Source: Caldalkalibacillus uzonensis (GTDB lineage: Bacteria; Bacillota; Bacilli; Caldalkalibacillales; Caldalkalibacillaceae). Taken from it: a DNA stretch of 64,000 nt. A program made the position numbers and the translations under genes. The stretch is taken from the NCBI RefSeq assembly GCF_030814135.1, contig NZ_JAUSUQ010000009.1:62001-126000 (forward strand), written 5' to 3'. Each line of letters starts with the position of its first letter. Position 1 is the first letter of the stretch. This document shows positions 53,531 to 55,218 of the stretch, in pieces. Under the pieces are notes generated by a model. The model made no database searches. It worked only from the letters and a program-made list of their open reading frames with translations, and was not told the DNA's origin.

Positions 53531-53962
53531 TTATTCTTCTCTCTTTTCCCGGCATGACCGGCATTGGCCATATAGTTCGATATTGACTGCATCCAACTTA
53601 AAGCCAAAACGCTCGGCAATGGCACCAAAGTTAATAAACAAGTCCAGGTCCATATCTTCAATGCAACCACATGTTTCACAGATGAGATGATTGTGACTCT
53701 CTTTAGATACTTCAAACCGTGTGCAATCTTCACCACAGTGAATGTCCCGTACAAGTCCGGTCTGTTTAAAATAGCGCAGTGTATTATATACTGTGGCCAT
53801 GCTCATATTAGGGTAATCTGGCCGCAGCTGATTCATGATTTGCTCAGCTGTGGGATGCTTCATTTTTTTCAGGGCTTCAAAAATGGCCACACGTTGGGGA
53901 GTCACGCGTATATTGTGAGCGCTTAACAGTTCTACTGTGGAGCCATCCAACTGCTGGGACAT
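53531..53962 (-). CDS. perR: Peroxide-stress regulator PerR (Fur family)
   Basis: The 143-residue repressor has the winged helix (NIRVTPQRVAIFEALKKMKH, MSMATVYNTLRYFKQTGL) with the conserved regulatory-site residues. The His of KKMKHPTAEQI, the Asp of CGEDCTRFEVSKESHNHL and the HNH His residues correspond to the Fe/Mn site oxidised by H2O2. Two C-x2-C pairs (ICETCGC and QCRSCREK) bind structural zinc. It would control peroxide defence genes. It follows a small gene on the same strand. Confidence 0.93.
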   Translation of the reverse strand: MSQQLDGSTVELLSAHNIRVTPQRVAIFEALKKMKHPTAEQIMNQLRPDYPNMSMATVYNTLRYFKQTGLVRDIHCGEDCTRFEVSKESHNHLICETCGCIEDMDLDLFINFGAIAERFGFKLDAVNIELYGQCRSCREKREE

Positions 53963-53983: not shown

Positions 53984-54181
53984 TTAGCACCAGCCTAGAT
54001 CACAATCCTCCACATATTGCTTGACTCTTTCTTGCTTTGGTGTTTGCCCGCCAGACTCTCTATTTAGTACAACATCCCAATTCACTTCAATGGAACCCAG
54101 AGTTTTTCCTCTATAGGCTATCACCACTTTGTCTTCACTCAGATCAATGCGCATCTCTTTAAGCAGTTCTTTTTTATTCAT
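53984..54181 (-). CDS. Small conserved-looking protein, 65 aa
   Basis: The ATG follows AGGAGGA at ideal spacing. The product (MNKKELLKEMRIDLSEDKVV...) is soluble, charged, with two Cys near the C-terminus (DCDLGWC). It lies 21 nt upstream of perR, transcribed with it. I recognise no family. The strong ribosome site and operon position argue that it is real; the C-x5-C ending may bind a metal or be redox-active (speculation). Confidence 0.6.
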   Translation of the reverse strand: MNKKELLKEMRIDLSEDKVVIAYRGKTLGSIEVNWDVVLNRESGGQTPKQERVKQYVEDCDLGWC

Positions 54182-54275: not shown

Positions 54276-54292
54276 ACTTATTTATAATAAGT
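54276..54292. promoter_or_regulatory. Perfect dyad ACTTATT-TAT-AATAAGT
   Basis: A 7-bp inverted repeat with a 3-nt centre. The AT-rich dyad is of the size of Fur-family sites and lies upstream of perR, but it is not a clear PerR box (TTATAATNATTATAA). Confidence 0.45.
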
Positions 54293-54442
54293 ATAAAATA
54301 GAACTTGATCTTGTCAATACCAGGCAAAACTATATTCCAGGAATTAATATGATGATATCTCTTGTTGTTAAACCTGCAAACTCCTACAAGCAATATTGTC
54401 ATAAGAAGGAAATAAACGTTTTATATTAATTATAAATTTGTA

Positions 54443-54470
54443 TTGATTTTAAGTTTGTATCTGCTATAAT
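54443..54470 (+). promoter_or_regulatory. SigmaA-like promoter of the GRDB-family gene
   Basis: TTGATT (54443-54448) and TATAAT (54465-54470) are separated by 16 nt and lie about 40 nt upstream of the ATG. Confidence 0.6.
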
Positions 54471-54507
54471 TCTTTATGGAACTCAATTCTTCAAGAAGAG
54501 GAGTGAG

Positions 54508-55218
54508 ATGATGCAAATCACCAAAAAAGCGATACCTTACACGCCTAATACGAAGCCGTTGCATGAGCTGAACATTATGATTGTCTCAACAGCCGGAGTT
54601 CACCATAAAGATCAGGAGCCATTTAACACGGATCCAACTGTCGGAGATGCCACTTTCCGCATCATCCCGGGTGACGTTAATTCTGCTGAGCTGACCGTAA
54701 CACATGCAGCGCCAAAGGAACATTACAATACGGATGCACCCAAGGAAGATATTAACTGCGTTTTCCCCATTGACCGACTCCGTGAACTGGCTGCAGATGG
54801 AGATATTAAGGGGTTGGCCGAAAAACATATCACGATGATGGGTTACTCTATGAGACTAAAGAAAATCAATGAAGAAACAATTCCAGCCGTCGTCAAGGAA
54901 GTGGTTCGTTCCCAAGCTGACGCTGTTCTGCTTACAGCTGGATGACCGCTTTGTCACCGTACTGTGGTCACAGTACAACGAGCTATTGAAGCACAAGGGA
55001 TTCCAACAACACTGATCACCCTCGATGTGGAACAGTCCAGTTTAATGCGTCCACCTCGGGCCATACATCCCATGCAGTTTCAGTTTGGCCATTCCCTGGG
55101 TAAACCTCATGATAAACAAACGCAAATGAAGGTATTAATGGCTGCCCTGGAGCAACTGACCATCAAACAAGAGCCGGGTCAAATTCACGAGATCCATTTC
55201 CCGAGCTATAATCAATAA
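54508..55218 (+). CDS. Candidate selenoprotein, GrdB/PrdB-related (GRDB family), in-frame TGA
   Basis: The frame is open from ATG 54508 (or 54511; GAGGAG upstream) to TAA 55216-55218 apart from one TGA at 54943-54945, codon 146. Protein: HELNIMIVSTAGVHHKDQEP, FNTDPTVGDATFRIIPGD and ADAVLLTAG, then U-P-L-C-H-R-T, then QRAIEAQGIPTTLITLD and MRPPRAIHPMQFQFGHSLG. I place it in the GRDB family. Relatives have Cys or Sec at this spot (G-[C/U]-P-x-C-H). The TGA falls exactly at the redox position of a U-x-x-C motif, and no residue is missing on either side. A SECIS-like hairpin follows at 54959. Reading TGA as Sec gives 236 residues. It could instead be a nonsense mutation. The substrate is unknown. 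Confidence 0.82.
54959..54976 (+). promoter_or_regulatory. SECIS-like hairpin
   Basis: GTACTGT and ACAGTAC form a perfect 7-bp stem closing a GGTC loop. It starts 14 nt after the TGA, with the loop 21 nt after it. The loop resembles the GGUCU apical loop of the E. coli fdhF SECIS. A bulged U in the stem, known to matter in E. coli, is not evident. Confidence 0.6.

Follow-up and report, generated by a model that had tools for sequence, protein, structure and literature searches.

We analyzed a 64,000-nucleotide window of the Caldalkalibacillus uzonensis genome, located on contig C9 of the 3.88-Mb assembly. It contains a gene for what is almost certainly a selenoprotein related to PrdB, preceded by a divergently transcribed unit. 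The features of this region, with the evidence for each, are as follows.

53531 to 53962, minus strand: divergent regulator of the Fur family, with PerR as its best match but below the family cut-off (profile match)
53990 to 54181, minus strand: ORF of 63 aa, the first in the divergent unit (sequence; no significant Pfam match)
54282 to 54296, no strand assigned: PerR-box-like operator TTATAATAAGTATAA with 1 mismatch, which overlaps the -10 element of a divergent promoter-like site (54317-54290)
54421 to 54435, no strand assigned: PerR-box-like operator TTATATTAATTATAA with 1 mismatch, immediately before the -35 element (consensus match)
54443 to 54470, plus strand: sigma-A-type promoter-like site, TTGATT-16-TATAAT (consensus match only)
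54496 to 54503, plus strand: ribosome-binding site AAGAGGAG (sequence)
54511 to 55218, plus strand: gene for the PrdB-like predicted selenoprotein, 235 to 236 aa (translation, match to TIGR04483, and homologues; a start at 54508 is also possible)
54943 to 54945, plus strand: UGA predicted to be read as selenocysteine (Sec), codon 146, in the motif U-P-L-C (TGA in relatives, TGT in one paralogue, Sec machinery)
54959 to 54976, plus strand: predicted SECIS hairpin with a 7-bp stem and the apical loop GGUC (pairing, covariation, low synonymous entropy, and the criteria of PMC13188914)
55270 to 55310, plus strand: terminator-like hairpin of 13 bp with a T run at its end (-22.8 kcal/mol, z -5.8)

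Translation of the frame from 54508 to 55218 showed exactly one internal stop, the TGA at codon 146 (context LLTAG-U-PLCHRT), just as the first-pass annotation had claimed. Of the elements that it had ascribed to the gene, the ribosome site was also recovered, as were a promoter-like site, by consensus match, and a terminator-like hairpin. The encoded product is a single 236-aa protein with a U-x-x-C motif (GUPLCH), which a mechanical ORF finder breaks into ORFs of 145 and 84 aa. The second ATG, at 54511, is the more likely start, since the homologues begin with M-E-L or M-Q-I and its spacing from AAGAGGAG is better. A scan of the window with the Rfam models yielded no match at gathering score.

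To evaluate the candidate selenoprotein proposed by the first-pass annotation, which had suggested a genome search for sel genes and an alignment of homologues at the Sec column, we searched the whole genome for the Sec machinery, and every component was found. A tRNA-Sec is encoded on contig C5 (73.9 bits, where the gathering score is 47; anticodon TCA according to ARAGORN). SelB is encoded at a distance of about 1 kb from it (379.9 bits; cut-off, 242) and SelA on that contig as well (E = 3.7e-177), while SelD is encoded on C9 (E = 4.9e-126). SelD (L018, C9:182097-183026) is itself a selenoprotein, with a TGA in the motif GG-U-GCKIG, and no fewer than four Sec genes are present in the genome, namely, two for PrdB-like proteins, one for a peroxiredoxin, and that for SelD. 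Among relatives, SelA was found in all 15 of the tested scan genomes that bear a homologue, as well as in genomes G001 and G004, and it is absent from the order-mates G002 and G003, both of which are devoid of a PrdB-like gene.

A genome scan recovered 30 close homologues from Bacillales (62 to 83% identical), from Neobacillus, Mesobacillus, Anaerobacillus, Evansella, Ammoniphilus, Aneurinibacillus, and other genera, along with a single distant one, and a class survey found the PrdB-like family in 27 of 399 genomes. In the sequences of the close clade pooled from the two sources, which may overlap in a few species and thus do not represent 47 independent lineages, the position of codon 146 is occupied by TGA in 47 of 47. 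Among these 47 are the same-genus orthologue (L024; 94 to 95% identical) and a second PrdB-like selenoprotein of C. uzonensis itself (L027, C17:54925-55617; 68% identical), which has no PerR-like boxes. A Cys version is found in a paralogue from the same-genus genome G001 (L028, C22:16575-17252), which has TGT at the Sec codon and lacks the hairpin described below. The motif of this paralogue is CPYSH, with Ser at the second position, leaving one redox residue of the pair. The more distant PrdB-like proteins of other Bacilli (L084-L095, L025, and L061; 27 to 41% identical) nearly all have TGA in a U-x-x-C motif; many of these have longer N termini, and no Sec-peroxiredoxin neighbor was seen for them. 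Two properties by which bacterial selenoproteins are recognized are hence present, i.e., an in-frame UGA conserved where the homologues have Cys or UGA and the co-occurrence of tRNA-Sec, SelA, SelB, and SelD in one genome.

The mRNA downstream of the UGA can form the stem-loop GUACUGU-GGUC-ACAGUAC, whose stem begins 13 nt and whose loop begins 20 nt past the UGA. The limits given for bacterial SECIS elements are a loop of 3 to 9 nt, a stem of 4 to 16 bp, a distance of 16 to 37 nt from the UGA, a G in the first two loop positions, and an MFE of ≤-7.5 kcal/mol (PMC13188914). The hairpin lies within these limits, in the case of the energy only with short flanks (-8.3 to -10.4 kcal/mol; -6.8 for the bare 18-nt stem-loop), and its folding energy by itself is ordinary (z -0.7 to -1.8). 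Its pairing is preserved in 100% of 21 distinct sequences, with compensatory changes at two of the pairs, one of which occurs as C-G, U-A, and A-U; the 20 cells with changes on both sides were equaled in none of 500 shuffles (0/500). Codons 151 to 156 show the lowest synonymous entropy of the gene (mean of 0.91 bits versus 1.76 bits elsewhere), a pattern that selection on the RNA, in addition to the protein, would produce.

In light of these comparisons, we regard it as nearly certain that the TGA at codon 146 is read as Sec, yielding a full-length selenoprotein of 26 kDa. SelB and Sec-tRNA would recognize the hairpin just past the UGA, and Sec would be put in at position 146. Competition between release and Sec insertion is common to Sec decoding in bacteria, which would fit a scheme in which the UGA is a regulated stop, with the 145-aa form as the main product and readthrough when selenium is plentiful, but the C-terminal 90 residues, including Cys149 of the redox pair, are conserved as well as the remainder of the protein, making this scheme quite improbable. 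The alternative entertained by the first-pass annotation, that a Cys codon has mutated to a stop, and the related one of a sequencing error, with the gene as a pseudogene, have the TGT of the single Cys paralogue in their favor and are rejected with negligible residual probability by the covarying SECIS, the full Sec machinery, and the presence of TGA, rather than TGT or TGC, in relatives from many genera. Both findings that the first-pass annotation had named as refuting a selenoprotein, a genome devoid of sel genes or tRNA-Sec and a TGT or TGC in close strains, are contradicted by these results.

We then examined the affinities of the predicted selenoprotein. Its closest named family is PrdB, a D-proline reductase subunit known from fermenting clostridia (TIGR04483; E = 2.8e-48), although the score of 164.5 bits is under the curated cut-off of 300. 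The protein shares with PrdB its length, the position of the U-x-x-C motif, and about 40% sequence identity from end to end (42% to that of Peptoclostridium); it differs in that no PrdA/PrdD partner is found in the C. uzonensis genome and that the homologue in relatives is paired with a peroxiredoxin. The first-pass annotation had called it GrdB-like. This holds at the level of the superfamily, as the Pfam GRDB model (PF07355) is matched above threshold (27.9 bits; gathering score, 22) together with the U/C-x-x-C motif, but the match to the GrdB family (E of about 1e-10) is weaker than that to PrdB. The matches to TIGR01918 (GrdB) are under the cut-off, and whereas the C-terminal part of GrdB can be aligned, the GrdB models span about 430 aa, of which the last third alone is matched by the 236-aa protein.

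Searches for the PrdA/GrdE-type subunit (PF09338) recovered none in the C. uzonensis genome or in G001, G005, G010, and G018, while, as a positive control, PrdA/PrdD were detected in the prd plasmid of Terrisporobacter, and full-length PF09338 genes were detected in one Ammoniphilus genome (G013). The gene was thus placed correctly outside glycine-reductase operons by the first-pass annotation. Its accompanying expectation, that Sec is rare in aerobic Bacillales, has to be qualified, the gene being not rare within the Sec-using members of the order. In phylogenetic trees, the close homologues form their own clade (support, 98/93) apart from classical PrdB (100/100), with long deep branches. 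The sub-cut-off score, the separate clade, and the absence of PF09338 lead us to describe the protein as PrdB-like rather than as a subunit of D-proline reductase or of glycine reductase. Membership in a classical D-proline reductase is not supported, given the score and the absent PrdA partner; nor is membership in a glycine, sarcosine, or betaine reductase, for which the protein is too short and the PF09338-type partner is likewise absent. The prdB gene of Peptoclostridium acidaminophilum (L104:5953-6666), which is named as D-proline reductase, also stands alone, with no prdA within the surrounding 12.6 kb. A structure model of the protein is confident (pLDDT, 88.9), and Foldseek and VIA-align searches with it recovered nothing beyond matches of a generic Rossmann-like type (best Z, 9.3, with unrelated folds tied just below), so that no function can be read from the structure; a sequence search of the PDB gave no match.

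In 37 of 43 homologue loci outside the genus (27 from the genome scan and 10 from the class survey), a gene for a Sec-containing peroxiredoxin, whose peroxidatic residue is encoded by an in-frame TGA (LDWTPVUGAQ), lies directly upstream of the PrdB-like gene. Neobacillus niacini is one of the species with this gene pair. The six close homologues outside the genus without it are L056-L058 and L081-L083, and those of them that were placed in the tree constitute one lineage. The C. uzonensis genome encodes such a peroxiredoxin (L062, C13:98485-98982; TPVU with TGA, 77% identical) apart from the PrdB-like gene. Among 39 such peroxiredoxins, no Cys/Sec column other than that of the Sec is invariant, and the C. 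uzonensis copy lacks Cys altogether. A peroxiredoxin that lacks its own resolving thiol depends on some other molecule for its reduction, and the co-encoded U-x-x-C protein would be the obvious candidate reductant. Peroxiredoxins of the PrxU type (NF040737; Eubacterium acidaminophilum) are related in sequence and share the TxxU motif with the partner described here, but the latter scores 80 bits against the PrxU cut-off of 270, has no invariant resolving Cys, and is coupled to a PrdB-like gene.

In C. uzonensis, the two genes appear to be connected by their operators. We take the PerR box consensus of Bacillus to be TTATAATNATTATAA. Sites with ≤2 mismatches to the PerR box are expected by chance 0.23 times per window, and sites with ≤1 mismatch to the consensus occur eight times in the 3.88 Mb of the genome; two of these precede the PrdB-like gene, and another is found about 131 nt upstream of the peroxiredoxin gene. 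The sole perfect box of the genome (L096, C3:93684-93698) precedes a gene for a thioredoxin reductase-like flavoprotein (TIGR01292; 299 bits, just below the cut-off). The divergent unit whose promoter-like site is overlapped by the box at 54282 to 54296 includes the PerR-like regulator, and a perfect box is present upstream of the same-genus orthologue. These shared PerR-like operators link the PrdB-like gene and the peroxiredoxin, though the two are not adjacent in this species. Against a connection with PerR, the neighboring regulator is below the family cut-off, and no Fur-family regulator was found beside the orthologue L024. Furthermore, several of the eight palindromes could also pass for Fur or Zur boxes, the boxes of the Fur family being alike, and no convincing PerR boxes were detected before the operons of other genera.

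The explanation that we favor overall, and consider probable, is that the gene encodes a selenoprotein, a PrdB-like oxidoreductase operating without PrdA or GrdE, that contributes to peroxide defense together with a one-Sec peroxiredoxin. Since it travels with the Sec-peroxiredoxin in Bacillus relatives, the PrdB-like protein probably helps remove peroxides, a role about which we are slightly more reserved, as the gene is not beside the peroxiredoxin in this genus and PerR boxes were not seen at the operons of the other genera. Its action as the specific reductant of the Sec-peroxiredoxin is a more tentative proposal, as the peroxiredoxin might instead receive its electrons from thioredoxin or from low-molecular-weight thiols. 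Under the favored explanation, peroxide would derepress PerR targets, causing both selenoproteins, and perhaps the thioredoxin reductase-like flavoprotein by way of its operator, to be made. The one-Sec peroxiredoxin would then reduce peroxide, leaving Se-OH. In the simplest version of a common electron path, this would be reduced by the Sec146-Cys149 pair of the PrdB-like protein, itself reduced in turn by a thioredoxin-type system.

Two other roles have to be weighed. The pairing in peroxide metabolism may be correct, with the PrdB-like protein acting in parallel to the peroxiredoxin, either as a selenol peroxidase itself or in repair, e.g., of oxidized thiols, bacillithiol mixed disulfides, or methionine. 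The U-x-x-C motif and the shared operators or operon fit this version equally well, nothing argues specifically against it, and as regards the peroxide role it coincides with the favored explanation; we nevertheless consider it unlikely. A touch less likely still is a selenoprotein for the reductive cleavage of a small substrate, such as an amino acid or other amine, with an unrecognized partner, in which case the link to the peroxiredoxin would reflect shared selenium regulation or clustering. The nearest sequence would agree with this, in that PrdB together with PrdA reduces D-proline, but the missing PF09338 subunit, the separation of the clade from classical PrdB, and the coupling to the Sec-peroxiredoxin at 37 loci along with the PerR-like operators all point away from it. 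Returning to the combined action of the oxidoreductase and the peroxiredoxin in peroxide defense, we suggest, with considerable reserve, that PrdA-less PrdB-like selenoproteins and one-Sec peroxiredoxins might constitute a dedicated selenium-based peroxide reduction system, which would be PerR controlled in this genus.

Sec-containing PrdB is a known family. In the Sargasso metagenome, 42 PrdB selenoproteins were reported beside 43 of the Prx (peroxiredoxin) family (PMC1088965), and in the GOS metagenome, the numbers were 235 and 253 (PMC2398784). As far as the available portions of these reports go, the ocean PrdB proteins resemble ours in having UxxC, in being among the commonest redox selenoproteins, and in being close in number to the Sec-peroxiredoxins, but the neighbors they describe are Prx/SelW reads and not a Prx/PrdB pair. 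Selenoprotein gene pairs that have been reported are Prx/SelW and Prx-like/AhpD-like. A study of selenobacteria (PMC11076775) does not describe Sec genes of the PrdB-like/peroxiredoxin kind. Neither the Prx/PrdB pair nor a peroxide role was found in the literature that we examined, within which both are apparently new, and an earlier description is possible. We infer that the pairing of Prx with PrdB-like proteins may also account for the many PrdB and Prx selenoproteins that occur as orphans in the ocean metagenomes.

Several of the Bacillales genera with PrdB-like homologues are presumably aerobic. Many genera of this order maintain the whole Sec machinery, and the PrdB-like and peroxiredoxin families are conserved neighbors in what would be a redox pair, even though Sec is usually seen as costly and as rare in aerobes (PMC13188914). 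The gene is easily missed, as gene finders cut it in two, and databases tend to label PrdB-like selenoproteins of this sort after an enzyme that they probably do not form. The role proposed here would provide PrdB-like selenoproteins without a proline-reductase partner with a concrete and testable function.
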